From the NCBI GenBank assembly GCA_016197205.1, contig JACPWG010000193.1, positions 1-64,000 on the forward strand: DNA of 64,000 nt. Direction: 5' to 3'. Position numbers and translations under genes: made by a program. Positions within the stretch are counted from its first letter, which is position 1, and every line of letters begins with the position of its first letter. Origin of the DNA: Planctomycetota bacterium. GTDB taxonomy: Bacteria > Planctomycetota > MHYJ01 > WSZJ01 > JACPWG01. The notes under the pieces were generated by a model. It was not told the DNA's origin. It saw only the letters and a list, made by a program, of their open reading frames with translations, and ran no database searches. Shown piece by piece: positions 19,983 through 36,971 of the stretch.

Positions 19983-20119
19983 AGTACCGCCCCACAGAAT
20001 TGGGTGACCAATTTCCTCGGCGATTTCGGCCGCCTGCTTCGTTGCACTCGCTCGACGTAGTTCTCCGTTACTACGCCTCGCTCGCGCGCCTCGCGGGCGG
20101 CCGAACTTGCCTTCGGCTA
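19983..20119 (+). repeat. 137-bp dispersed repeat, copy 2, forming the truncated 5' end of the helicase gene
   Basis: It matches 10276-10412 (inverted) from AGTACCGCCCC to GCCTTCGGCTA. Homology to the other copy stops exactly where helicase-like protein sequence begins (YSGSFVNILDPRI). In the helicase frame a TAG lies inside the repeat at 20058-20060, and no ATG, GTG or TTG occurs before 20397. Confidence 0.8.
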
Positions 20120-23100
20120 CTCCGGCAGCTTCGTCAACATCCTGGACCCCCGCATCCGCGAGTACGTCGACAAGACGGTCGGCGAGGGTTTCCTCTGGCC
20201 GGACCCGCTCCTCCAACTCAACCCCGCCTTCGCGCCCGGCGAGAGCATCGACCAACTCGTCGATGCCGGCGTCCTCCACGACGACTGCCGCGCGGTTTTC
20301 CGCATCAAGCCGGAGCCTCGCGACGCGGGCAAGCCACTCCGCCTCCACAAGCATCAGGCGGACGCCGCCAAGATCGCGAGGACCGGCGCGAGCTACGTGC
20401 TGACGACGGGGACGGGTTCCGGCAAATCCCTGGCCTACATCATTCCGATCGTCGACCATGTCCTTCGGGCCGGGTCCGGCCGCGGCATTCAAGCCATCAT
20501 CGTCTACCCGATGAACGCCCTCGCCAACAGCCAGCATGGCGAACTGACGAAATTCCTTTGCCACGGCTACCCGGACGGAAGAGGACCCGTCAGCTTCGCG
20601 CGCTACACCGGCCAGGAATCTCCCGAGGAGAAGCAGAGCATCATCGGGCATCCGCCCGATATCCTCCTGACAAACTACGTGATGCTCGAACTGCTGCTCA
20701 CCCGTCCCGACGAGGTCCCCCTGATCCGCTCCGCGCAGGGGCTACGCTTCCTCGTCCTGGACGAAATGCATACCTACCGCGGCCGTCAGGGCGCCGACGT
20801 CGCCCTTCTCGTTCGACGAACCCGGGACCGCCTCGCGGCGGTCGAACTCCAGTGCGTCGGAACGTCGGCGACGCTGGCCGGATCCGGCACGCGACGGGAG
20901 AGGTGCGCGGAGGTTGCCAAGGTCGCCACTCTCCTCTTTGGAACCGAGGTGCGACTGGAGCACGTCATCAGCGAGTCCCTGAGCAGGACCACCCCCGACC
21001 GCGATCTCAAGGATCCATCGTTCCTGCGTGAGTTGACAGCACGAGTTTCCGATGCCTCCGGGAAGCCCCCGACGGACTTCGACGCGTTCGTGAAGGACCC
21101 CTTGTCCGTCTGGATCGAGACGACCTTCGGCATCACGACCGAGCAGGACCCCGAAAACAAAACCGGCCATCTAGTCCGAAACTGCCCGAAGCCGATCTCA
21201 GGAAAGCAGGGGGCCGCAGCCAAGCTCGCCGGTTCGACCGGCCTCCCCGTGGACGCCTGCGCCGGAGCCCTCCAAACCGCGCTCCTGGGGGGCTATTGCG
21301 TGAAACACCCGGAAACCGGCTTCCCGGTCTTCGCCTTCCGACTTCACCAATTCATCAGCCGCGGCGACACCGTGTGGGCCTCGCTCGAACCTGAAAGTCA
21401 GCGCTACCTCACGGCGCACGGCCAACAGTTCGTCCCAAACGACCGCAAGCGCGTCCTGTTGCCGCTCGTGTTCTGCCGGGAATGCGGTCAGGAGTATTTC
21501 TGCGTCCAGGCTCGCCTGGACGGCGCCTCCGGCTCCAGGGTCTTCGAACCGCGGGAGCTCTCTGACCACCTCACGGGAGATGACGCCGAGGCGGGTTTCC
21601 TCTTTTTCAACACGAGTCGTCCTTGGCCGAACGACGTCAAGGCTGAGCTCCAGCGTTTGCCCGATGACTGGATCGAAGACCATCGAGGAGGTTCGCGAGT
21701 CCGTGCGAACCGTCGCGAGCACGTTCCGCGGACCCTCCGCATCACGCCGGAAGGTCGCGAGGTCGAGGCGGGAGCGCTGGGCCTTTCGGTTCAGTACTTC
21801 GCGGCCCCCTTCCGTTTCTGCCTGAACTGCGGCGTCGCGTACGGGGGGCGTCAAGGATCGGACTTCGCCAAGCTCGGCACGCTCGGCTCCGAGGGCCGCA
21901 GCACGGCAACGACGATCCTCAGCATGTCCGCCATCCGTCATCTGCGAAAAGAAAATCTCCCCGAGCGAGCCCGAAAGCTGCTCTCGTTTACGGACAACCG
22001 CCAGGATGCCTCGCTCCAGGCGGGACATTTCAACGACTTCGTCCAGATCGGAGTCCTCCGCTCGGCGCTGTTTCGCGCATGCAGGGACGCGGGCGCGGAT
22101 GGCCTTCGCCACGAGGTTCTGACGCAAAAAGTTTTTCGCGCCCTGGAACTTCCCGTGGCCCTGTACGCAAGCGACCCGGACGTTCGGTTCAATGCCCTCG
22201 CGGAGACGCAGCGCGCGCTACGGGACGTCATCGGGTATCGCCTGTACGTAGACCTGCAGCGTGGGTGGCGCATCACGTCGCCAAACCTCGAACAGACAGG
22301 CCTACTTCACCTCGACTACCTCTCGCTGTCCGACGTCTGCGCTGCCGAGGACGTGTGGCGGAAGACGCACCGCGCCCTTTCGCAGGCCGCGCCGGCAACT
22401 CGGGTCGACGTCGCCCGCACGCTTCTCGACTTCATGCGGCGGGAACTGGCGATCAAGGTGGAGTACCTTGAACGTCTGACGCAGGAACGCATCCGACTCC
22501 AGAGCAACCAGCGCCTGATCCCGCCGCTCGCCATCGACGAAAACGAGGGCCTGTTCCAAGAAAGCCGTGTCCTTTATCCGCGGGCCGGCGGCGCAGAAGA
22601 CGATCCAGGCCATTTGTACCTCTCCCCTCGGGGCGGTTTCGGGCAGTACCTCCGTCGAGCCTCCACCTTCCCGGAATACCGCGAAAAGCTCGAGGTCAGT
22701 GATGCCGAACAGATTTGCACGCGACTCCTCGAAGCTCTCCGAGTGGGCGGTCTGGTCGAGATCGTCGAGCAGCCACGTTCGAAGGGGGACGTGGCCGGCT
22801 ACCAAGTGCCGGCATCGGCCATGGCGTGGGTCGCAGGAGACGGCACCCAGCCCTTCCATGATCCGATTCGCACCCCGAGTCGCTCTTCGACCGGTGGGCG
22901 AACCAACAGGTTCTTCGTCGAGTTCTACCGCGCGATCGCCGCGGAGGCGCGTGGCCTGGAGGCGCGCGAGCACACGGCCCAGGTGCCGAACTACATTCGC
23001 CAGGATCGCGAGGATCGCTTCCGCGATGCAAGGCTGCCCGTCTTGTACTGCTCCCCGACCATGGAGCTTGGCGTCGATATCGCTGAGCTGAACCTGGTGA

Positions 23101-25349
23101 ACCTGCGAAACATCCCTCCCACGCCGGCGAACTACGCGCAACGCAGCGGCCGCGCAGGCCGCAGCGGCCAGCCGGCGCTCGTCTTCACCTACTGCGCGGC
23201 GGGAAGCCCGCATGACCAGTACTTCTTCAAGCGGCCCGAGCTGATGGTGGCCGGCCAGGTGACACCGCCGCGACTGGACCTGGCGAACGAGGACCTTGTT
23301 CGGGCGCATATCCACAGTATCTGGCTCGCGGAGACCGAACAGGGGCTCGGGAAGTCGCTCAGGGACGTCCTGGACGTCTCCGGTGACAAGCCGAGCCTGG
23401 CTTTGCAGGACGTCGTTCGGGATAGCATCGGTCGAGAGGAGGCCGCCGCGCGAGGGCGAGTCCGTGCCCACCAGGTCTTGGCCACCCTTGAGGGCGAACT
23501 GCGCGCCTCCGATTGGTTCACGGATCGCTGGGTGGGTGATGTTCTGGCCCAGGCGGTCCGGCAGTTCGACCAGGCCTGCGAACGCTGGCGGGGTCTCTTC
23601 CGAGCCGCTCTTGAGCAGGCCGAGGCGCAGGATCGGATCATCCGCGACGCGTCGCGCAACCCGATGGACAAACGCCAGGCCGAGCAGCTCCGTCGTGAGG
23701 CTGAGGCGCAGCTCAAGCTCCTTGCTGAATCCGAAAACGTGATCCAATCCGATTTCTACAGCTACCGCTACTTCGCCAGCGAGGGTTTCCTCCCCGGGTA
23801 CAGCTTCCCTCGACTGCCGCTCTCCGCCTACATTCCAGGCCGTCGCCCGATCAAGGGCCGGGATGAATTCCTCTCGCGTCCTCGCTTCCTCGCGATCACC
23901 GAATTCGGTCCTCGCGCGATGGTGTACCACGAAGGCTCTCGCTACGTGATCAACAAGGTGATCCTGCCGGTGAGCAACGACCAGGTCCTTACGAGCTCGG
24001 CTAAGATCTGTGACGGGTGCGGCTACTTGCATCCGGTGGCGGGCGGAGCGGGCCCCGACTTGTGCGAGCACTGCGCCGCTCCGCTTGGGAATACTCTTCC
24101 CAATTTCTTCCGACTCCAGAACGTGAGCACTAAGCGTCGGAATCAGATCAACTCCGACGAGGAAGAGCGGCTCCGGATGGGGTATGAAATCAAGACGGCC
24201 GTGCGCTTCAGCGAGCGCGACGGTCGCCCGCTGTACCGTTCGGCGGCCGTGAAGCGCGACGGGAAGCGGCTAGGCGACCTGGCCTACGGCCACGCCGCGA
24301 CGCTTTGGCGCATCAACCTGGGCTGGACTCGACGGAAGGACAAGGGCCAGTACGGCTTTGTCCTCGACATGGAGCGGGGCTTCTGGGGGAAGAACAATCA
24401 AGTGGCGATCGAGGAGGACGATACGGACCCCATGAGCGGCCGGGTGCGGCGGATCATCCCGTTCGTGGAGGACCGGAAAAACTGCCTGATCTTGCGGTTC
24501 GACGGGGTGGAAGCCGGGGCGGTTACGACCAGTGGGTATGGGGCTGAGGGCAGCGCAGGAGCGTCGAGGGGAGCGGGCTCGCGGAGCTACGCCGCCGCAC
24601 ATGAGGTGATGGCCTCGCTCCAAGCGGCGCTCAAGACCGCGATGCAGGTCCGGTACCAGCTCGAAGACAACGAACTCGCCGCGGAGGCTCTGCCCGACAG
24701 CGAGGATCGACGCGCGATTCTGGTCTACGAGGCCGCCGAGGGCGGGGCCGGCGTCCTGCGGCGTTTGCTGGATGACCGCGATGCTCTCGCCGAGGTGAGC
24801 CGGGTAGCGCTGGAGCTTTGCCACTTCGACCCTGCGTCGGGCGAGGATCGCCGACGAGCGCGCCCCGACCGGGAGGAGTGCGAAGCGGCCTGCTACGATT
24901 GCCTAATGAGCTACGGGAATCAGCGGGACCACAAGCTGCTCGATCGCCGGGCCGTGCGCGACATGCTCCTGGCACTGGCTTCGGCCACGGTCGAGAGCGC
25001 ACCGACCGCGGCCCCGCGTGGCGAACACGTGGAAGTTCTGTCGCGGCAAGCCGGCTCGGATCTTGAACGGCGCTGGCTGCGCTTCTTGAACGAGAAGGGC
25101 TACCGACTGCCCTCGCGCGCCCAGGTCCTGATTGGGGCGTGCCGGACTCGGCCCGATTTCGTGTACGATGAGGCGCAAGCCGCGATCTACATCGACGGGC
25201 CGGTCCACCGGTATCCGGAACGGGCCGCGCGCGACGCGGCGCAGACGGAGGCGCTCGCTGATCTGGGGTACACGGTCATCCGATTCTCGGATGAGGAAGA
25301 CTGGGCGGCGAAGTTGGGGCAGCACCCCTACCTGTTTGGGAAGCCTTGA
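20118..25349 (+). CDS. Giant DEAD/DEAH helicase with DUF1998 and C-terminal nuclease-like domain; 5'-truncated
   Basis: About 1,743 codons of coding sequence, but with no normal start codon: the first in-frame one is the GTG at 20397, which would delete the sequence before the Walker A motif (TTGTGSGKS). The upstream coding sequence (SFVNILDPRIREYVDK ... PLRLHKHQADAAKIARTG) clearly belongs to the protein. Helicase motifs follow: DEMH at 20760-20771, SFTDNRQDAS, then MELGVDIAELN and QRSGRAGRSGQ. Zinc-binding pairs CRECGQ, CLNCG and CDGCG/CEHC are present, and the DUF1998 region ends in CYDCLMSYGNQRDH. The last roughly 100 residues (RPDFVYDEAQAAIYIDGPVH ... LGYTVIRFSD) resemble the Vsr/DUF559 restriction-endonuclease fold. 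DUF1998 helicases occur in DISARM and Druantia phage defence. This is the first gene of the island and is probably impaired unless it initiates unusually. Confidence 0.8.
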   Translation, partial: YSGSFVNILDPRIREYVDKTVGEGFLWPDPLLQLNPAFAPGESIDQLVDAGVLHDDCRAVFRIKPEPRDAGKPLRLHKHQADAAKIARTGASYVLTTGTGSGKSLAYIIPIVDHVLRAGSGRGIQAIIVYPMNALANSQHGELTKFLCHGYPDGRGPVSFARYTGQESPEEKQSIIGHPPDILLTNYVMLELLLTRPDEVPLIRSAQGLRFLVLDEMHTYRGRQGADVALLVRRTRDRLAAVELQCVGTSATLAGSGTRRERCAEVAKVATLLFGTEVRLEHVISESLSRTTPDRDLKDPSFLRELTARVSDASGKPPTDFDAFVKDPLSVWIETTFGITTEQDPENKTGHLVRNCPKPISGKQGAAAKLAGSTGLPVDACAGALQTALLGGYCVKHPETGFPVFAFRLHQFISRGDTVWASLEPESQRYLTAHGQQFVPNDRKRVLLPLVFCRECGQEYFCVQARLDGASGSRVFEPRELSDHLTGDDAEAGFLFFNTSRPWPNDVKAELQRLPDDWIEDHRGGSRVRANRREHVPRTLRITPEGREVEAGALGLSVQYFAAPFRFCLNCGVAYGGRQGSDFAKLGTLGSEGRSTATTILSMSAIRHLRKENLPERARKLLSFTDNRQDASLQAGHFNDFVQIGVLRSALFRACRDAGADGLRHEVLTQKVFRALELPVALYASDPDVRFNALAETQRALRDVIGYRLYVDLQRGWRITSPNLEQTGLLHLDYLSLSDVCAAEDVWRKTHRALSQAAPATRVDVARTLLDFMRRELAIKVEYLERLTQERIRLQSNQRLIPPLAIDENEGLFQESRVLYPRAGGAEDDPGHLYLSPRGGFGQYLRRASTFPEYREKLEVSDAEQICTRLLEALRVGGLVEIVEQPRSKGDVAGYQVPASAMAWVAGDGTQPFHDPIRTPSRSSTGGRTNRFFVEFYRAIAAEARGLEAREHTAQVPNYIRQDREDRFRDARLPVLYCSPTMELGVDIAELNLVNLRNIPPTPANYAQRSGRAGRSGQPALVFTYCAAGSPHDQYFFKRPELMVAGQVTPPRLDLANEDLVRAHIHSIWLAETEQGLGKSLRDVLDVSGDKPSLALQDVVRDSIGREEAAARGRVRAHQVLATLEGELRASDWFTDRWVGDVLAQAVRQFDQACERWRGLFRAALEQAEAQDRIIRDASRNPMDKRQAEQLRREAEAQLKLLAESENVIQSDFYSYRYFASEGFLPGYSFPRLPLSAYIPGRRPIKGRDEFLSRPRFLAITEFGPRAMVYHEGSRYVINKVILPVSNDQVLTSSAKICDGCGYLHPVAGGAGPDLCEHCAAPLGNTLPNFFRLQNVSTKRRNQINSDEEERLRMGYEIKTAVRFSERDGRPLYRSAAVKRDGKRLGDLAYGHAATLWRINLGWTRRKDKGQYGFVLDMERGFWGKNNQVAIEEDDTDPMSGRVRRIIPFVEDRKNCLILRFDGVEAGAVTTSGYGAEGSAGASRGAGSRSYAAAHEVMASLQAALKTAMQVRYQLEDNELAAEALPDSEDRRAILVYEAAEGGAGVLRRLLDDRDALAEVSRVALELCHFDPASGEDRRRARPDREECEAACYDCLMSYGNQRDHKLLDRRAVRDMLLALASATVESAPTAAPRGEHVEVLSRQAGSDLERRWLRFLNEKGYRLPSRAQVLIGACRTRPDFVYDEAQAAIYIDGPVHRYPERAARDAAQTEALADLGYTVIRFSDEEDWAAKLGQHPYLFGKP

Positions 25350-26382: not shown

Positions 26383-29241
26383 ATGCCCTTCGCCGTCGGC
26401 TCCCTCGTCCGCGCCCGCGGTCGCGAGTGGGTCGTCCTCCCCGAGTCCGCTCAGGCCCCGGAGCTCCTTGTCCTCCGCCCGCTCGGCGGAACCGAGGACG
26501 AAGTCACCGGCATCTACCTCCCCCTCGAGACCGTCGAGCCCGCACGCTTCGACCTCCCCGATCCCGCCCAGGTCGGCGACTTCCGCTCTTGCCACCTCCT
26601 GCGCGACGCCATCCGACTCGGCTTCCGCTCCAGCGCCGGCCCTTTCCGATCCTTCGCCCGCATCGCTGTCGAGCCGCGACCCTACCAGCTCGTTCCCCTC
26701 CTCATGGCACTCAAGCTCGACCCCGTCCGCTTGCTGATCGCCGACGATGTCGGCATCGGCAAGACCGTCGAGGCCGGCCTGATCGCGCGCGAACTGCTCG
26801 ACCGCGGCGAAGTTCAGCGCCTCGCAGTCCTCTGCCCTCCCCACCTCGCCGAACAGTGGCAGACCGAGCTGCGCGCCAAGTTTCACATCGACGCCGAGGT
26901 CGTCCTTCCCAGCACCGCAACCCGCCTCGAACGGAACTGCCGCGTCGGTCAATCTCTCTTCGACCTCCACCCCCACGTCATCGTCTCGCTCGACTTCATC
27001 AAGACCGACCGCCGCCGCGACGAGTTCCTCCGCACCTGCCCCGAGCTGGTTATCGTGGATGAAGCACACACGTGCACCTGGGGTCAGGGGGGCCGCAGCT
27101 CACGGCATCAGCGGCACCAGCTCCTCAGCGGATTGGCTGCGGATCCCGATCGCCACCTGCTGCTCGTCACCGCCACGCCCCACAGTGGGAACGCGACCGC
27201 GCATCGCTCTCTCCTGCTCCTCCTGAATCCCGACTTCGGCAACCTGCCCGAAGACCTGACGGGAGCGGAGAACGAGTCCCACCGCCGCCGCCTCGCCGCC
27301 CACTACGTTCAACGTCGCCGCGGTGACATCGAGCATTACCTGGATGCCGACACGCCGTTCCCGAAGCGGGAAGAAGCCGAGGAAACCTACAAGCTCTCCG
27401 CCGATTACAAGAAACTCTTCGAGCGCGTGCTCGCCTACGCCCGCGAGACCATCATAGATCAGTCCGGCCCCGCAGCCCCCGCCGGCGCCCGCGGCCACCG
27501 CCAGCGGGTGCGCTGGTGGTCGGCGCTCGCGCTCCTGCGTTCCCTCGCGAGCAGCCCCGCCGCCGCGGCCGCCACGCTTCGCAACCGCGCCGCGTCCGCC
27601 GACGCCGCCAGCCCCGAGGAGGCTGACGAAGCCGGCCGCCGCGCCGTGTTCGACCAGGAGCCGGAAGATAGCGGAGAGGGCGTCGATGTAACGCCGGGCG
27701 GCGACATGGGGGAGTTCGCGGACGACGAGACCGCGAATCAGCGCCGACTCCGCGAGATGGCCGCCGCCGCCGAGGCACTCCAGGGCGCGAAGGACGAGAA
27801 ACTCAAGCGCGTCCTCCGCGTCGTCGAGTCCGTGCTCAAGGCAGGCTACCACCCAATCCTCTTCTGCCGGTTCATCCCCACGGCCAAGTATCTTGCCGAG
27901 CAACTCCGCGCCAAACTGCCGAAGGACGTGGAGGTGGCCGATGTCACGGGAGCCCTGCCGCCCGCCGAGCGAGAGGAGCGTGTGGCGCAGCTCTCGAAAG
28001 CGAAGCGGCGCGTCCTCGTCGCGACCGATTGCCTGAGCGAGGGCATCAACCTGCAGGACCACTTCAGCGCGGTCGTGCATTACGACCTCGCCTGGAACCC
28101 GACGCGCCATGAGCAGCGAGTCGGCCGCGTCGATCGGTACGGGCAGCCGGCCAAGAAGGTGCGCGCGCTGACCTATTATGGCGTCGATAACCAGATCGAC
28201 GGCATCGTCCTGGACGTCTTGATTCGCAAGCACGACAAGATCCGCAATTTTCTCGGCGTCTCCGTCCCGGTTCCCATCAACACGGACACCGTCATCGAAG
28301 CCATCCTCGAGGGGCTGCTGTTACGGAAAGGACCTGACATTGGAGAACAGCTCCTGCCCGGTTTCGAAGCGGTAATCAAGCCGCATCGCGAGGCCCTGCA
28401 CGCTCAATGGGAGCAGGCGAAGGAACGCGAGAAGCGGTCGCGCACCGTCTTCGCACAGGAGACCCTCAAGGTCGAGGAAGTCGGACGCGAGCTGGTGGCG
28501 GTCCGGGCGGCGATCGGCTCGAGCGTCGATGTAGCCTCTTTCACCCAGGAGTCGCTCCGTGCCCACGGGGCGGTGGTCGAGGACAGCGTGGTCGCTGCGA
28601 CACCGACCGTGCGCTTCGGTCTCGCGGAGGCGTCGCAAGCGCTTCGCGAAGCGCTGGGCAGCGGGGACTCCATCCACGCCCGCTTCGAGCTACCGGTTCC
28701 GGAGGGCGTGGTCCATCTCTCGCGGACCCACCCCTTCGTGGAGGGCCTCGCCGCGCACGTGATGGACAGCGCGCTCGACCCGCTCGCCGCGGGAATCGCC
28801 CGCCGCTGCGGTGTTATCCGTACGCGCAAGGTCCAACTCCGGACCACGGCCCTGCTGGTGCGACTCCGCTACCACATCGTGCGCGTCCACGAAGATGGGG
28901 AACGGCCGCTTCTCGCGGAAGACTGCCGGCTCGTCGCATTCGTCGGTTCGCCCCGTGTCGCGGAGTGGCTTCCTCCCGCCGTCGCCGAAGAGTTGCTCAC
29001 GGCCACGCCCGAGGCCAACGTGCAGCCCGACCAGGCGTCCGAGTTCGTCCGCAAGGTGATCGAAGAGTTCGATGCGCTGCGGCCGCATTTGGACGAAATG
29101 GCCCGAGCGCGCGGCGAGGAGCTCCTCGACGCCCACCGTCGCGTCCGCGTTGCCTCGCGCCTGCGCGGAGTTCGATATCGCGTCGAGCCGCAGCTTCCGC
29201 CGGACGTGCTGGGCGTGTACATCTACCTGCCGATCGCGTGA
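26383..29241 (+). CDS. SNF2-family helicase, DrmD-like (DISARM)
   Basis: 952 residues. The N-terminus (VGSLVRARGREWVVLPES ... PLGGTEDEVTGIY) and the whole layout match the DrmD-type SNF2 proteins of DISARM phage-defence loci. ATPase motifs: G124-I-G-K-T128 in LIADDVGIGKTVEAGL, D226-E-A-H229 in VIVDEAHTC, and LVTATPHSGN. The second RecA lobe has VLVATDCLSEGINLQDHF and HEQRVGRVDRYGQ. The roughly 300 C-terminal residues are a family-specific helical region. There are no nuclease motifs. These proteins translocate on double-stranded DNA and probably help to recognise or process incoming phage DNA. It begins 16 bp after hicA and ends 47 bp before the DUF4062 gene. It is slightly shorter than typical DrmD. 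Confidence 0.85.
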   Translation: MPFAVGSLVRARGREWVVLPESAQAPELLVLRPLGGTEDEVTGIYLPLETVEPARFDLPDPAQVGDFRSCHLLRDAIRLGFRSSAGPFRSFARIAVEPRPYQLVPLLMALKLDPVRLLIADDVGIGKTVEAGLIARELLDRGEVQRLAVLCPPHLAEQWQTELRAKFHIDAEVVLPSTATRLERNCRVGQSLFDLHPHVIVSLDFIKTDRRRDEFLRTCPELVIVDEAHTCTWGQGGRSSRHQRHQLLSGLAADPDRHLLLVTATPHSGNATAHRSLLLLLNPDFGNLPEDLTGAENESHRRRLAAHYVQRRRGDIEHYLDADTPFPKREEAEETYKLSADYKKLFERVLAYARETIIDQSGPAAPAGARGHRQRVRWWSALALLRSLASSPAAAAATLRNRAASADAASPEEADEAGRRAVFDQEPEDSGEGVDVTPGGDMGEFADDETANQRRLREMAAAAEALQGAKDEKLKRVLRVVESVLKAGYHPILFCRFIPTAKYLAEQLRAKLPKDVEVADVTGALPPAEREERVAQLSKAKRRVLVATDCLSEGINLQDHFSAVVHYDLAWNPTRHEQRVGRVDRYGQPAKKVRALTYYGVDNQIDGIVLDVLIRKHDKIRNFLGVSVPVPINTDTVIEAILEGLLLRKGPDIGEQLLPGFEAVIKPHREALHAQWEQAKEREKRSRTVFAQETLKVEEVGRELVAVRAAIGSSVDVASFTQESLRAHGAVVEDSVVAATPTVRFGLAEASQALREALGSGDSIHARFELPVPEGVVHLSRTHPFVEGLAAHVMDSALDPLAAGIARRCGVIRTRKVQLRTTALLVRLRYHIVRVHEDGERPLLAEDCRLVAFVGSPRVAEWLPPAVAEELLTATPEANVQPDQASEFVRKVIEEFDALRPHLDEMARARGEELLDAHRRVRVASRLRGVRYRVEPQLPPDVLGVYIYLPIA

Positions 29242-29288: not shown

Positions 29289-31034
29289 GTGAGCACGTCA
29301 GCCATCTTTGTCAGCAGCGTCCAGAAAGAGCTCACCGAGGAACGCCGTGCCCTGAAGGCGTTCGTTGAGGGGGACGCGCTGCTCCGTCGCTTCTTCACGG
29401 TGTTTCTTTTCGAAGACCTGCCCGCCGCCGACCAGCGGGTCGATGCCGTCTTTCTCGACCAGGTGGATCGCTCGTCGGTGTACGTCGGACTTTTCGGCAA
29501 CGACTATGGCTTCGAGGATGCAGAGGGCAGATCTCCTACCGAGCGGGAGTTCGATCGAGCCACTCGCCAAGGAAAGCCCCGCTTCATCTTCGTCAAGGGC
29601 GCGGACGATCGCGCGCGCCACCCCAAGATGGCGGCGCTCGTCAGGCGGGCCGGTGATCAGTTGATTCGTCGCCGGTTCGCCGGCGTCTCGGAGCTCACCG
29701 CGGCGCTCTACGCGAGCCTGGTCGAGCATCTCGAACGCACCGGCCGCCTCCGGACCAAACCGTTCGACGCAGCCGCCTGCCCGGACGCGACGCCGGCCGA
29801 CTTGTCGGCCGAGAAGCTGAACTGGTTTCTCGCGCGCGCCCAGGCGGAGCGGGCCTATCCGCTTCCGCCCGGTACCCGCATGAAGACCGCGCTGGCCCAC
29901 CTTAATCTCCTCGACGGTCGCGAGCCCAGCCATGCCGCCGTACTCCTCTTCGGCCACCGCCCGCAGCGATTTCTACTCAGCTCCGAGGTCAAGTGCCTGC
30001 ACTTCCATGGCACCGAGGTGAGCAAACCGATCCCCTCCTACCAGCTCTACAAAGGCACGGTGTTCGAGCTGGTCGATCATGCGCTGGACTTCGTAATGTC
30101 GAAGATCGCGCGCCGGGTCGGCACTCGTGCCCAGGGACCGGCTGCGCCCGTGGACTATGAGCTGCCACGAGAGGCGGTCGCCGAAGCCCTTGTCAACGCG
30201 GTCGCGCACCGCGATTACGCGAGCAACGCCAGCGTGCAAGTGATGCTCTTCGCCGACCGGCTGGAGGTATGGAACCCGGGCGAGCTGCCGCTCTCGCTCA
30301 CGCTCGACGAACTTCGTCGTCCCCACGCATCGATTCCCCGGAATCCGCTGATCGCCGAGCCGATGTTCCTCGCCCACTATTCGGAGAAGGCGGGAACCGG
30401 CATCCTGGACATGATCGCGCGCTGCCGTGAGGCGGGAACTCCGCTGCCGGAGTTCCGACAAAGCGGCGGGCAGTTCGTTCAGGTCCTTGGCCGCCCCAAG
30501 GTTGCGGAGACCCCCGAAGTTACCCCCCAAGTCGCCCCCCAAGTCACCACGGGAGTCGCCCCGGAAGTCCGGCTGGCCCGGCTGGTAAGTGGAGAGATGA
30601 CACGTCAACAACTTCAGAAGGCTCTCAGGCTGAAGGACGCGAAGCACTTCAGGGAAGCTTACCTCCAACCCGCTCTGGACGCGGGCCTGATCGAGATGAC
30701 GATTCCGGACAAGCCCCAGAGCAAGCAACAGAAGTTCCGCTTGGCCGCCGCGGGGCCCCAGGCCACTTCGGGGGTTCCCCCCCATGTCACCCCCCATGTC
30801 ACCCCCGAAGTCGCCCCCGAAGTGAGACTGGCCCGAATCGTACGAGGAGAGATGACGCGCGAGCAGCTTCAACAGTCGCTCGCACTCACGGATGCCAAGC
30901 ATTTCAGAAAGTCCTACCTACAGCCCGCTCTGGACGCCGGCCTGATCGAGATGACGATCCCGGACAAGCCCCGCAGCAGCAAACAGAGGTATCGCCTGAC
31001 CGCCAGGGGGGCGGCGAAGGGCGAGCCGTCATGA
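29289..31034 (+). CDS. DUF4062 - HATPase - winged-helix regulator/sensor protein
   Basis: 581 residues from the GTG at 29289 (AGGAG upstream). Residues 3-95 are DUF4062 (SAIFVSSVQKELTEERRALK ... SSVYVGLFGNDYGF ... ATRQGKPRFIFVKG), a TIR/nucleotide-sugar-hydrolase-like fold. Residues about 165-400 match the central part of Schlafen/AlbA-type regulators (COG2865), including the GHKL-like ATP-binding block ELPREAVAEALVNAVAHRDY and EKAGTGILDMIARC. Here DUF4062 takes the place of the usual AlbA_2 domain. The C-terminus is a tandem duplication of a 76-residue unit: a Val/Pro/Gln linker plus winged helix (EMTRQQLQKALRLKDAKHF and EMTREQLQQSLALTDAKHF). It overlaps the methyltransferase gene by 4 bp. 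It is a plausible infection sensor or regulator of the island. Confidence 0.8.
   Translation: MSTSAIFVSSVQKELTEERRALKAFVEGDALLRRFFTVFLFEDLPAADQRVDAVFLDQVDRSSVYVGLFGNDYGFEDAEGRSPTEREFDRATRQGKPRFIFVKGADDRARHPKMAALVRRAGDQLIRRRFAGVSELTAALYASLVEHLERTGRLRTKPFDAAACPDATPADLSAEKLNWFLARAQAERAYPLPPGTRMKTALAHLNLLDGREPSHAAVLLFGHRPQRFLLSSEVKCLHFHGTEVSKPIPSYQLYKGTVFELVDHALDFVMSKIARRVGTRAQGPAAPVDYELPREAVAEALVNAVAHRDYASNASVQVMLFADRLEVWNPGELPLSLTLDELRRPHASIPRNPLIAEPMFLAHYSEKAGTGILDMIARCREAGTPLPEFRQSGGQFVQVLGRPKVAETPEVTPQVAPQVTTGVAPEVRLARLVSGEMTRQQLQKALRLKDAKHFREAYLQPALDAGLIEMTIPDKPQSKQQKFRLAAAGPQATSGVPPHVTPHVTPEVAPEVRLARIVRGEMTREQLQQSLALTDAKHFRKSYLQPALDAGLIEMTIPDKPRSSKQRYRLTARGAAKGEPS
30519..31001 (+). repeat. 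In-frame tandem duplication, two 228-bp units
   Basis: Units 30519-30746 and 30774-31001 each encode 76 residues: a V/P/Q/H-rich linker (VTPQVAPQV or VTPHVTPEV type) followed by the same winged-helix sequence. The stretch ALDAGLIEMTIPDKP is identical in both. The short spacer between units is 27 bp, keeping the frame. Confidence 0.85.
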
Positions 31035-34000
31035 GCGCCGGCAACCGGAGCATCTTCACCACCGTCCGCACCGAAGGGGCCATCCTTCCGCCGGACCTGC
31101 TCCAGCGCGTCGTCGAGGGGGATCGCTCGCTCGGCGGCTTCACCCCCGCGGACTACCACCTGACCGAAGGCGAAAAGCTCAACGAGGCCATCAATCGCTC
31201 GTGGACGCGGCTGCGCGGCGCCTGGCTGGGCTTCAGGGGCGCCGAGGCGAAGCTCCCGGCCGCGGACCCGGGTACATCCCTGACGCGCGAGCGCTGGCTA
31301 CTTGCCCTCTTCCAGGAGTTCGGCTACGGCCGGCTCGTCGCGGCAAAGGCGATCGACCTCGGGGACAAGTCCTACCCGATCTCCCACCTCTGGCAAAACA
31401 CGCCGATCCACCTCGTCGGCTGCCGCGTGGATTTGGATCGCCGCTCGGCCGGCGTCGCGGGCGCAGCCCGCGGAAGCCCGCACAGCGTGGTCCAGGAGCT
31501 GCTCAATCGCTCGGACGCGCATCTCTGGGCGTTCGTGTCGAATGGCCTGCGCCTGCGCATCCTTCGCGACAACGTGAGCCTCACACGGCAGGCGTTCGTG
31601 GAATTCGACCTCGCCGCGATGATGGAGGGGGAGGTCTACTCGGACTTCTCGCTGCTCTGGCTGGTCTGCCACCAATCGCGCGTGGAAGCCGAACGCCCGG
31701 AGGCGTGCCGACTCGAGGCGTGGTCACGCGCCGCGCAGGAGCAGGGCACGCGAGCGCTCGACCAGCTTCGGCAGGGCGTCGAGGCCGCGATTGTGGCGCT
31801 GGGGCGCGGCTTCCAGGCGCATCCGGCGAATCCCGTACTTCGCGACAAGCTCCGCACCGGCGCCCTGTCGGGCCAGGACTACTACCGGCAGCTTCTGCGG
31901 ATCGTGTACCGCATGCTCTTCCTTTTCGTCGCCGAAGATCGCGAGCTTCTGCTTGATCCGCGGGCGGAGGCCGCGGCGCGCGAGCGCTACACGCGCTACT
32001 ACGCGCTGGCGCGGCTGCGGCGGCTGGCGGAAGCCCGGCGCGGCTCGAAGCACGCGGACCTCTGGCGCGGGGTCGTCCTCGTGATGGGCAAATTGGGAAA
32101 GGACGAAGGGTGCCCGGCGCTGGCGCTGCCGGCGCTGGGGAGCTTCCTCTGGTCGGAGGCGGCGATCGGGGTCCTGGGCGGCTGCGAGTTGGCGAACCAC
32201 GACTTGCTCGCCGCGATCCGCGCGCTGGCCTTCGTCCAGGACGGCAAGGTGCGGCGCGGCGTGGACTACAAGAATCTCGGGGCCGAAGAGCTGGGCAGCG
32301 TCTACGAGTCGCTGCTGGAGCTGCATCCGGTGATCGATGCGGGCGCGGGGAAGTTCGAACTGGCGAGCGCGGGCGGCAGCGAGCGGAAGACTACCGGAAG
32401 CTACTACACGCCGACGAGCCTAATCACCTGCCTGCTCGACTCAGCGCTTGACCCGGTGCTGGACGAGGCAGTCAAGCAGCCGACTGCGGCGGCCGCGGCG
32501 ACCGCGATCCTGAAGCTGAAGGTCTGCGATCCGGCCTGCGGAAGCGGGCACTTCCTGATCGCGGCGGCGCACCGGATCGCGAAGCGGCTGGCGGCGGTGC
32601 GGACCGGGGAGGAGGAACCGGCGCCGGAGGCCATGCGCACGGCGCTGCGCGACGTCATCGGGCATTGCCTCTACGGCGTCGACCTGAACGAGATGGCCGT
32701 GGAGCTGTGCAAGGTGAGCCTGTGGATGGAGGCGTTGGAGCCCGGGAAGCCGCTGTCCTTCCTGGACCATCGCATTCGCTGCGGGAACAGCCTGCTCGGC
32801 GCGACGCCGGCGCTGGTGGCGGCCGGGATCCCGGACGCGGCGTTCGAGCCGATCGAGGGGGACGACAAGAAGATCGCGTCGGCGCTACGTCACGAAAATC
32901 GAGACGCGCGAAGAGGGCAGGGCAACCTCTTCAGCGCGCTCGAACCAAAATCGTTCGCGAGTGCCCGGGCGCTCGCGGACACGGTTGCGGCTCTCGATGC
33001 GTTGCCCGAGGCGACGATCTCCGATGTTCACCACAAGGAGGACGACTTCCAGCGGATGGAGCACACCGCTGGAGTCGTGGCGCTCCACCGGGCGGCGGAC
33101 GCCTGGTGCGCGGCATTCGTCGGGGCCAAGGCACCGGATACGCCTCCTGCGATTACTCACGCGACATTCGCGCGTCTCGTGAAAGAGCCGGCGGAAGCTC
33201 CGAGTGCGGTCCTTGCCGAGGTGGCGCGACTCCACGAGGCCTACGGGTTCTTTCACTGGCACTTGGCCTTCCCCGAGGTGTTTCGAGTTTCGGAGGCCGG
33301 GGCCGCTGAGTCGCCGGATGATGCCCGGCAGGGGTGGCGCGGCGGTTTTGATGTCGTGCTCGGGAATCCCCCGTGGGACACACTGAGTCCGGATGCGAAG
33401 GAGTTCTTTTCGAATTACGATCCGGACGTGCGTTTCCGAGACAGCGCGGGGCAGAGGCGGATCATCGATCGCCTGCTCGAACAGTGCGAAATCGCCGAGC
33501 GCTGGCGGCTGCACTGCCGCCGGCTCTACTCCCAGGTCCACTTCTTCAAGGACAGTGGTCGGTTCCGGCTCTTCGCCCCGGGCAACCTCGGCAAGGGGGA
33601 CTTCAACGTCTATCGCATGTTCGTTGAGACCGCCCTCCAGATCGCAAGGTCCGGCGGTCGTGTGTCCCAGATCGTGCCGGAGGGCCTCTACAACGGCGCC
33701 AACTGCATGGCGATTCGCAAGGAGTTGTTCGAGTCGTGCAGGCTGGATCGGCTTCTGGGCTTCGAGAATGCGAACGAGACCTGGTTTCCTGGGGTCGATA
33801 CGCGCGCGAAGTTCTGCATCTATTCCGCAGCAAAGAGCGGCACCACCACCTCGTTTCGGACCGCCTTCAACATCCGGAGCGAGGCGGCACTGGCCGCGGC
33901 TGCCGCCGCGGGGGGAGGGCTGGACCTTCCCGTCGCCATGATCCCCGAGTTTTCGCCGGACGCCCTTGCGATCATGGAGTTCTCGGATCAACGAGACATC

Positions 34001-35518
34001 GACATCGCGTCAAAAATGTACTCTCGCTGGCCGAAGTTCGGGGACGAAACGGCCGGTCCGCCGCGCCGCCTCTATATGCGCGAAATCGACATGGGGAACG
34101 ACCGGGATCTCTTCGATGAGGCCCCAGGCGGGCTGCCGCTCTATGAGGGGCGGATGGTGGATCAGTTCGACCATCGCGCGAAGGGGTATCGATCCGGCCG
34201 CGGACGCGCGGCCGTGTGGGAGGAGTTGCCGTTCGGCAGCGCGGGCAAGTCGATCCAGCCGCAGTGGCGCATTCCCGTAGCGAGGGTGCCGGAGAAGACG
34301 CGCGAGCGGGTCCAGCAGTTTCGCGTCGGCTTCTGCGATGTAGGCAGCCCGACGAATGAACGAACGCTGGTGGCGGCGCTGATCTCACAGGAGGCCCTTT
34401 GCGGACACAGCGTCCCCACCATCACTTTTGGAGCTGCCGAGGATTGGGCCTACTGCTTGTGGCTCGCGGTCGCGAACTCCTACGCGATGGACTTCCTCGT
34501 GCGTCAGAAGGTCAGCCTCCACATGACCTACATCGTCTTGGACAGCTTGCCCTTCCCGCGCCTGCCGGCCTCCGACCCGCGGGTCGCTCGAATCGTGCGG
34601 CTCGCCCTTCAACTATCCTGCACGGGCCCCGAGATGGCTCCCTTCTGGAATGCGATGGCGCAAGCGGGCTGGGTCGAGCATGTCCCTGTCGCCGGGCCGT
34701 CTCCAGGAATCGTGGAGGAAGCGGCCCGGCTGGAGGCGCGAGCGGAGCTGGATGCAATCGTCGCCCGCGATCTCTTCGGCCTGAGCCGCGCGCAACTTGC
34801 CTACATCCTGGGCACGTTCCCGATCGTTGAACGGCGAGATCGTGAGCGCTACGGCAGCTTCCGCTCGCGCGATCTCATCCTCGAATTCTTCGACCAGGCC
34901 GCCCCCGCCGCCGCGCCTCCGGAACTCGACGCGGTACAGGTCCCACCTCCGGCGATCTCCCGTGCTGCAGCGGCGCCGCCGGTTCCCGTCGTCGCGCTAG
35001 GCAGGGTTGCGACTCCGGAGCCCTTTCTGCGTGTCCGGCCGAGACCCGGCGATCGCTACCGAACCTGCGTGCCGTTGCTCTCGCTCCGAGCGGCGGCCGG
35101 CGCCTTCAGCGACGATCAAGCCGTGGAGTTCGACTCGTGGGTCGAGATCGCCACTACGCATCCTCTGCGCAAGGGGATGTTCATCGCCCAGGTCGTGGGG
35201 CGCTCGATGGAACCCCTGATTCCAGATGGCGCCCATTGCTTGTTCGTGCGCCATCCGGGAGGCACCCGAGAAGGGCAGATCGTCCTGGTTCAGCACCGCA
35301 GCATACAAGACCTCGAGGCGGGCGGCACGTACACGATCAAGGAGTACCACAGCGAAAAGCAGCGGACGCCCGACGGGAGCTGGCACCACTCGCTCGTCCG
35401 CTTGCAACCGCTCAACCCGAGCTACACACCAATCGTAATTCGTTGCGATTCCGAGGACTCTGGAAACGACCTGAAAGTGATCGCGCGATTCCTCGAAGTC
35501 CTACACTTCAGCCCTTGA
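31031..35518 (+). CDS. Eco57I/PglX-type adenine DNA methyltransferase fused to a LexA/S24-like peptidase domain
   Basis: 1,495 residues, starting in the ATGA overlap with the previous gene. Residues about 1-430 are a helical and nuclease-fold-like region ([16 protein letters not shown]) as in large type IIG/PglX enzymes. The SAM-binding motif [11 protein letters not shown] is at 498-508 and the catalytic N779-P-P-W782 in LGNPPWDTL, so the product is N6-methyladenine. A target-recognition-like region follows to about 1300. The C-terminal 150 residues are a LexA/S24-type domain: [18 protein letters not shown] with nucleophile Ser1392, and [11 protein letters not shown] with Lys1437, the spacing of the Ser-Lys dyad. 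No PD-(D/E)XK triad is obvious. It probably marks host DNA in the defence system. The fused peptidase is unusual and suggests regulated self-cleavage. Confidence 0.85.
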
Positions 35519-36196
35519 CCTCAGACGTAACTCATTCCCGCAGTGAACCTTTGGCCACTTCGACCGACAACATGTACGCCAAAGACTTGGAGATCACTCG
35601 GTCGAACAGCCCATTCCTGGTGGCCCAACTTGTCAGCCAGCGTTTCGATAGGCACGCCGTGGTTGGGACGTGAGCGGGCCACGACGGGGGCGAACTTGTC
35701 CCGGAATGGGTCTGGATCGTTCGCTCGGAGAGGATCCAGGGCCATCCATCGGAGGCGGGCAAAGTCGCCGCGCCTGAAAGAGGGCGCACCGCCCCTGTCC
35801 TCGTGGTAGAGATCCCCCGGCATTCGCTGGGGGATGCCGAGCCGATTGCGCACGACCACCCGCATCCACAACGGATCATCGAGCGGGTAGGAGCGGGCGG
35901 CCGACGCCGACGCCCATGTCGCTCCCTTCGCGCGCTCCGTCGCATTACCACCGGGGCGGGGCAGCTCGAAGCCGTCTCGCCCGCCGTCCGATCCCTGCGA
36001 GCTCTCGCTGGGCTGAGAGCCACATCCCTGCAGATGCTGACGAGGCCGGGGACTCTTCGGTCGGCGGTGTCCCCAAACCCCGGAGCGGGTCGCGGCGGGT
36101 CGAACTACAGGTGGACACGCGCGCAGACCGGCAGCCAGCACCCGCCCACGGACTCCTTCGCCTGCAAACACACGCGCACCCGGCCGCGGATTCCCC
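35519..36196. other. Right boundary of the defence island, no confident gene
   Basis: About 680 bp with several overlapping open frames on both strands, none with a start, ribosome-binding site and protein-like composition together. One minus-strand frame ends with GVPIETLADKLGHQEWA, faintly recalling a tyrosine-recombinase phrase, but the surrounding sequence does not support it. It is probably decayed DNA. Confidence 0.4.
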
Positions 36197-36225
36197 TTGT
36201 CTCCGGCCGACTTGCCCGCTAGACT
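36197..36225 (+). promoter_or_regulatory. Promoter for the right Uma2 gene
   Basis: TTGTCT (36197-36202), a 17-bp spacer and TAGACT (36220-36225), about 95 nt before the ATG at 36324. Confidence 0.5.
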
Positions 36226-36323
36226 CCGGGTGGTGCTTCTTCATTCTCTCGTACGCATGGACTTGCGAGTCCGGGCCCGCTCGGCGCGACGAACGGTCGC
36301 AGGACACTCCGGGGAGACCACCG

Positions 36324-36971
36324 ATGACCGTCACGGCGCAGCATCGAATCTCTTCCGACCAGCGCTTCCTCCTTGGGTCCGCGGACTGGGGGACCTATCG
36401 GAGGATCCTGGAGGCGTTGGGCGACCGTCACGTGTTCGTCACCTACGATCGCGGGAGGCTGGAGATCATGTCCCCGTCGCCGAAGCACGAACGAGTCAAG
36501 TCGCTGCTGGGCCGCTTGGTCGAAATGTTGTGCTTCGACCTGGACATCGAGATCCAGCCCGGGGGTTCCACGACGTTTGGCCGGAAGGACCTTGACCGCG
36601 GCCTGGAGCCGGACGAGTGCTACTGGATCCGGAACGAAAAGAGGGTACGCGACCTCGTGGAGTTCGACGCGCGTCGCGATCCGCCGCCGGACCTGGCGAT
36701 CGAAATCGACATCTCGCGGAGAACCCTGGATCGACAGGCAATCTACGGGGCGCTCGGCGTTCCAGAGTTGTGGCGTCATGACGGTGACCGCTTGCGCATC
36801 CTGCTCTTGCAGCCGGACGGCGCCTATGCGCCGGCGACGAAGAGCCTCAGCTTTCCCTTTCTCCCGATGCGCGAATTCGAACGGTTTCTGCGTCCGCAGC
36901 GTGGGCTGAGGGGCAATGCACTGCTCCGGCGCTTCCACCTCTGGGCGCGTCGTTTCCGGAAGCGGAAGTAG
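36324..36971 (+). CDS. Uma2-family putative endonuclease (second, divergent member)
   Basis: 215 residues from the ATG at 36324 (GGGGAGA upstream). Uma2/DUF820 pattern: HVFVTYDRGRLEIMSPSPKH ERV-type N-terminal block, GLEPDECYWIRNE, and the nuclease-fold core PPPDLAIEIDISRRTLDRQA, where Asp and Glu are the expected metal ligands. IYGALGVPELWRHDGDRLRI follows. Only remote similarity to the Uma2 protein at 19158 is apparent. The basic C-terminus (RRFHLWARRFRKRK) is longer than in most members and could bind nucleic acid. It is a single gene with its own promoter. Confidence 0.88.
   Translation: MTVTAQHRISSDQRFLLGSADWGTYRRILEALGDRHVFVTYDRGRLEIMSPSPKHERVKSLLGRLVEMLCFDLDIEIQPGGSTTFGRKDLDRGLEPDECYWIRNEKRVRDLVEFDARRDPPPDLAIEIDISRRTLDRQAIYGALGVPELWRHDGDRLRILLLQPDGAYAPATKSLSFPFLPMREFERFLRPQRGLRGNALLRRFHLWARRFRKRK

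Follow-up and report, generated by a model that had tools for sequence, protein, structure and literature searches.

An S24 (LexA/UmuD/CI-type) module on an ARMADA Type I methyltransferase recurs on restriction and defence enzymes and may serve as a RecA-triggered off-switch

Results

The operon around the methyltransferase gene

The analysed stretch of DNA (the window, 64,000 nucleotides) contains an operon on the plus strand with the gene order YprA helicase, SNF2 helicase, DUF4062 protein and, as the last gene, a methyltransferase. The YprA-family DEAD helicase (20118–25349, +) bears an MZB (MrfA Zn-binding) domain and a C-terminal DUF559 nuclease-like domain and corresponds to the ARMADA Type I helicase. 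Its homology begins at about position 20118, approximately 93 residues upstream of the first in-frame ATG, GTG or TTG (20397); therefore, the gene should really begin further upstream, with either a rarely used start codon or a frameshift close to 20,100. The second ARMADA component is a BrxHII/RapA-like SNF2 helicase of the DrmD/DpdE-like kind (26383–29241, +). It is followed by a protein with DUF4062, HATPase_c_4 (RecG-C-like) and Fic-like_C domains (29289–31034, +), which has two similar C-terminal repeats. The ATG of the methyltransferase gene overlaps the stop codon of the DUF4062 gene (ATGA), and the two genes are thereby translationally coupled. Directly downstream of the operon, a gene of the Uma2 family (putative restriction endonucleases) is located at 35916–36971, of which the listed N-terminal part is probably non-coding.

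With respect to components and gene order, the operon agrees with the definition of ARMADA Type I by Bell et al. 2025 (PMC12458937), showing the same succession of YprA, BrxHII-like SNF2 helicase and PglX-like methyltransferase. It differs from that definition by an S24 domain on the methyltransferase and by the additional DUF4062/HATPase_c_4/Fic_C gene in front of the methyltransferase gene; the publication mentions neither S24, LexA nor DUF4062. The other ARMADA operons examined, including those free of the S24 module, yielded no homologue of the DUF4062/HATPase_c_4/Fic-like_C protein. The cassette of YprA helicase, SNF2 helicase and methyltransferase is present in the same order in 12 other loci with approximately 35–70% identity, some of these contigs ending within the methyltransferase gene. 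A GajB-like helicase with a RelE domain after YprA, which characterizes ARMADA Type II, was not noticed next to the operon, whose first gene is YprA. DISARM class 1, which requires DrmA and DrmB, does not fit either, as the DrmA profile matched the YprA helicase only weakly (E 1.8e-14 vs 2.2e-90 for DruE) and no DrmB-like ORF was identified among the operon genes. The SNF2 helicase and the methyltransferase are homologous to those of DISARM class 1 (DrmD, DrmMI) and to BREX PglX, whereas, unlike in DISARM class 1, the YprA component resembles that of Druantia/ARMADA and not DrmA, and neither DrmB nor DrmC was noticed in the operon.

The methyltransferase and its S24 tail

The methyltransferase ORF (31031–35518, +) encodes 1,495 amino acids without an internal stop, comprising a PglX-like (Eco57I/Type IIG-like) adenine methyltransferase recognized by the Eco57I, N6_Mtase and DrmMI profiles and a C-terminal S24 module. 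Residues ~450–790 match Eco57I/N6_Mtase, and the motifs DPACGSGHF (500–508) and NPPW (779–782) are intact. Homology to module-free methyltransferase relatives stops at an Ala/Pro-rich linker (residues ~1292–1335; 34904–35035, +). The linker is followed by the S24 module (LexA/UmuD/CI-type autoprotease; residues ~1336–1495; 35036–35515, +). The first-pass annotation had placed a LexA/S24-like peptidase domain at 35080–35518; the domain is indeed present, but it starts further upstream, at residue ~1335–1340 (~35035). Peptidase_S24 (PF00717) matched residues 1354–1472 above the Pfam cut-off of 23.3 bits, scoring 27.7 bits against the full-length protein and 34.1 bits against the isolated tail. 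The two catalytic residues are located exactly where they had been proposed, namely Ser1392 (GRSMEP; codon TCG, 35204–35206, +), which is part of the GxSM motif typical of S24, and Lys1437 (TIKEYH; codon AAG, 35339–35341, +). A spacing like that of LexA, UmuD and phage repressors had also been proposed; the distance of 45 residues between Ser1392 and Lys1437 exceeds the 37 residues of LexA and UmuD and is nearer to the 43 of lambda CI. A further S24 hallmark, absent from that annotation, is a predicted cleavage-site region (35057–35107, +) with the putative scissile bond Ala1356-Gly1357 (codons 35096–35098 and 35099–35101). Gly1357 precedes Ser1392 by 35 residues, which is LexA-like (34 in LexA, 35 in UmuD).

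An AlphaFold model of the module, built from 26 aligned modules, reached a pLDDT of 90.1 and a pTM of 0.85. It matched 13 PDB chains at E≤0.001, all of them LexA or lambda CI (best E 4.5e-6) and including RecA-bound forms, so that a fold unlike S24, which would have spoken against the annotation, was not obtained. Likewise, a profile of 27 module sequences retrieved no PDB entries other than LexA, UmuD and CI at E values up to 10 (best E 2.2e-5), and its AAG, Ser and Lys columns stood in register with theirs, while an earlier profile of nine sequences had given no PDB matches. Judged by sequence and model, residues ~1340–1495 are thus a genuine S24 (LexA/UmuD/CI) domain that has the Ser1392/Lys1437 dyad and an Ala1356|Gly1357 site. 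A chance motif is ruled out by the PF00717 match above the cut-off, the profile search and the structure matches. An assembly artefact is unlikely in view of the reading frame, which is open throughout, the similar codon-position GC on either side of the methyltransferase/S24 junction, and a second ARMADA methyltransferase-S24 fusion (L065).

The module shares with LexA, UmuD and CI (MEROPS S24, PF00717) the fold, the Ser-Lys dyad, the Ala-Gly site ~35 residues before the Ser and a conserved segment ahead of the scissile bond. In contrast to these proteins, it has no DNA-binding HTH and is fused to or inserted into restriction enzymes. The N-terminal winged helix of LexA proper (PF01726) is not found, the N-terminal part of the 1,495-residue protein being the methyltransferase.

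Conservation and history of the module

Alignment of 28 modules showed 11 invariant positions out of roughly 150 (P1348, A1356, G1357, W1370, F1384, G1390, S1392, M1393, D1427, K1437 and L1458). Among them are the two residues flanking the scissile bond and the catalytic pair; none of the aligned homologues had thus lost the Ser or the Lys, a loss that would have spoken against the annotation. Conservation also covers the segment preceding the scissile bond (P1348, A1355, and L1352 with 26/28); a cut would part this segment from the module, and its conservation makes most sense if it is substrate. Together with the dyad, the invariant bond argues for a functional autoprotease that carries its own substrate, and we consider the module very probably an active self-cleaving protease on the basis of alignment and model. 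A catalytically dead S24 fold used for dimerisation or docking only, which had been offered as the alternative, is hardly credible: S24 domains do dimerise, but a scissile bond would not be kept for this purpose, and with Ala-Gly, Ser and Lys each conserved in 28/28 modules we rejected this explanation. In one close pair of modules (L035/L066), 18 synonymous and 17 non-synonymous codon differences were counted, which are small numbers from a single pair.

The conserved cleavage site and dyad would fit any timing of the cut. They would thus also fit a constitutive maturation, in which a co-translational or slow self-cut acts as an assembly or quality-control tag without a damage signal. This is quite unlikely, since good conservation extends over the entire beta-core of ~140 amino acids and the proteins nearest in structure are repressors that are inducible and RecA-dependent.

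When placed in a tree together with 15 LexA proteins, the modules fell into a single clade (support 100/100), separate from the LexA proteins of their hosts, while many inner branches are weak. Within this clade, the modules do not group by type of host enzyme (11 changes of type vs a minimum of 7), which makes transfer of the module from one enzyme to another probable.

Distribution and host enzymes

With the tail as query, the module was detected in 7 of 99 searched genomes, the window genome included. The nine-sequence profile detected it in 21 of 392 genomes (~5%) of the phylum of the window genome, in 4/247 and 3/251 genomes of the phyla of L012 and L002, respectively, and in none of the 111 genomes of the phylum of L006. 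Outside these sets, it is present on one viral contig and one Halomonas plasmid, and annotated phage genomes gave no match. The recent capture of a phage-repressor tail is unsupported, as phage genomes gave no match, the sole viral-contig locus is itself an HsdR fusion, and the module clade consists of defence-enzyme domains.

The identified hosts comprise several subtypes of Type I HsdR, Type III Res, YprA/DruE-like (Druantia/ARMADA-like) helicases, HIT-PLD-ResIII (DUF3427) helicases matching the Type IV-like (mREase_IV-like) models of PADLOC, Schlafen-group-3 helicases and two ARMADA methyltransferases; a few matches are fragments or short proteins without a nameable host (e.g. L078). The common factor of the hosts is restriction and defence, not methylation. 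The first-pass annotation, which had proposed a self-cleaving domain in a defence methyltransferase, was hence right about the domain and too narrow about its setting; the link to DNA damage by way of RecA that it suggested is plausible. The many kinds of restriction proteins with the module, and its absence from most close methyltransferase homologues, point to control of whole restriction systems and not of methylation itself.

The window genome encodes two S24 proteins, both of them fusions. Besides the methyltransferase, this is a Type I HsdR with a C-terminal module (L029; C149:4780-8658), whose gene adjoins genes for HsdS and a YhcG-type PD-(D/E)XK nuclease. In another genome, two HIT-type helicases (L120 and L121, on contigs C760 and C624) carry a more divergent S24 domain that was missed by the module profile, which suggests further S24 fusions beyond the module clade. 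At L092 (3579-6740), an in-frame stop separates the helicase from the S24 module, and at L093 (6106-10043) a frame change does so; these may be natural two-gene versions, products of decay or sequencing errors.

The module as an add-on to ARMADA methyltransferases

Sixteen methyltransferase relatives align to residue ~1290–1340 and no further, and those with complete C-termini end there or bear unrelated tails. Eight homologues with complete C-termini are without the S24 module, which excludes it as a general feature of ARMADA methyltransferases. The second ARMADA methyltransferase with the module (L065) comes from another family of the same phylum and has one apparent frameshift in the middle of the gene. 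Unrelated C-terminal tails were seen on the ARMADA Type I methyltransferases of L002, L003, L009 and L012; that of L003 resembles, by eye, a gamma-glutamylcyclotransferase-type domain. From these alignments, the C-terminus of the ARMADA Type I methyltransferase looks like a site at which additional domains can dock.

Placement of the module in its hosts

Most hosts carry the module at the C-terminus. In three HsdR proteins of the EcoEI type (L035, L036 and L066), it is inserted cleanly inside the PD-(D/E)XK nuclease domain, with the N-terminal helix (..ETEADARIVIDELLRAAGWD..) on one side and the catalytic strand (..RADYVL..LAVIEAKK..) on the other, while in a homologue from a cyanobacterial plasmid with 67% identity (L124) the same segment is uninterrupted. 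As the AlphaFold model of the nuclease with the inserted module had a pLDDT of 37, this split of the domain was taken from the sequence alignment. In L067, the module is located directly before Walker A. According to these alignments, cleavage in the three HsdR proteins or in L067 would cut the enzyme in two. The predicted N-terminal fragment after cleavage ends with ..AA in 26/28 modules.

These placements bear on the possibility that the cut activates the enzyme. During phage infection, ssDNA and RecA filaments would lead to removal of the module, thereby releasing or activating a restrained methyltransferase or restriction complex. The C-terminal placement, which is that of the window protein and most others, would leave the enzyme whole after the cut, and phage replication can yield RecA filaments. 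Nevertheless, we regard an on-switch as unlikely: in the HsdR insertion lineage the cut would split the nuclease domain, in L067 it would detach the part N-terminal to the motor, and a single activating cut is hard to picture across so many unrelated enzymes and positions.

Discussion

The enzyme-splitting placements and the ..AA ends of the predicted fragments favour inactivation, and the module is probably an off-switch rather than an on-switch or a constitutively cleaved element. The proposed course of events would start with the host in trouble, when DNA damage or the restriction of its own unmodified DNA gives rise to RecA-ssDNA filaments. The module would dock on RecA as LexA does and cut itself at Ala1356|Gly1357. 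Thereby, the module would be removed and the methyltransferase left with the end ...RAAA-COOH, a LexA/ssrA-like tail that is likely recognized by ClpXP; in enzymes with an internally inserted module, the cut would split the nuclease or the motor in two. The restriction complex would then be inactive until recovery of the host, which would amount to a self-contained restriction alleviation. The N-terminal fragment of LexA is a known ClpXP substrate, and RecA and ClpX are both encoded in the window genome. As ARMADA depends on its methyltransferase subunit for defence, loss of this subunit would disarm the system. In ARMADA Type II, the NPPW motif of the methyltransferase is required for defence (PMC12458937), so that loss of the methyltransferase should turn defence off. 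Against this off-switch, the C-terminal placement alone would also allow an activating cut, and the proposed ClpXP degron could be incidental, as an Ala at P2 is usual in LexA cleavage sites.

RecA-ssDNA is the likeliest trigger, given that the proteins nearest in structure respond to RecA. S24 domains vary in their trigger, with other ligands, e.g. antirepressors, acting on some phage repressors, and the same autoproteolytic module could accordingly respond to a phage-encoded or other ligand instead of RecA. This would agree with the distinct position of the module clade relative to LexA and with the window genome (9.1 Mb, assembly ~91% complete), in which no canonical LexA was detected. Still, such a trigger is unlikely, since RecA is present, the fold is closest to RecA-responsive proteins and no candidate ligand is encoded nearby. 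A canonical LexA is present in a relative of the same family and in most module-bearing relatives; that none was detected in the window genome makes the SOS wiring there uncertain. For the complete proposal, a RecA-triggered off-switch for the restriction system with trigger and direction both inferred, we see the chances as evenly balanced. The broader idea, that a mobile SOS-type autoprotease module common to Type I, Type III, ARMADA/Druantia and other restriction systems is a self-contained kill-switch triggered by RecA, is put forward somewhat more tentatively.

Restriction alleviation in Type IA and IB systems is brought about by ClpXP digestion of HsdR (PMC12707154, PMC4231737). The off-switch proposed here would resemble the ClpXP-dependent alleviation of EcoKI in that a restriction enzyme is inactivated by proteolysis and the host chromosome is protected (PMC4231737, PMC12707154). 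In EcoKI HsdR, a ClpX degron was sought and not found, the signal being the translocating complex (PMC4231737); in contrast, the module-bearing enzyme has its own putative protease and would make its own tail. In a strain with the non-cleavable lexA1 allele, plasmid-induced alleviation of EcoKI persists, so that self-cleavage of LexA is dispensable for it (PMC11109961), a point that counts against the off-switch proposed here.

For S24/LexA-like fusions to restriction enzymes, nothing relevant was found in the open-licence literature, while an earlier report elsewhere is possible, and recent papers on related systems contain no report of the S24 module. The attachment of one domain to many unrelated restriction enzymes suggests a built-in LexA-type off-switch for immunity that, to judge from this literature, is new. 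The control of restriction after DNA damage is understood in few model enzymes only. If the proposal is true, a self-cleaving module within the enzyme would represent an independent way of alleviating restriction and would link the SOS signal directly to anti-phage immunity across several unrelated defence families. Immunity would then be turned off upon damage of the host chromosome, and phages could disarm such systems by raising RecA filaments.
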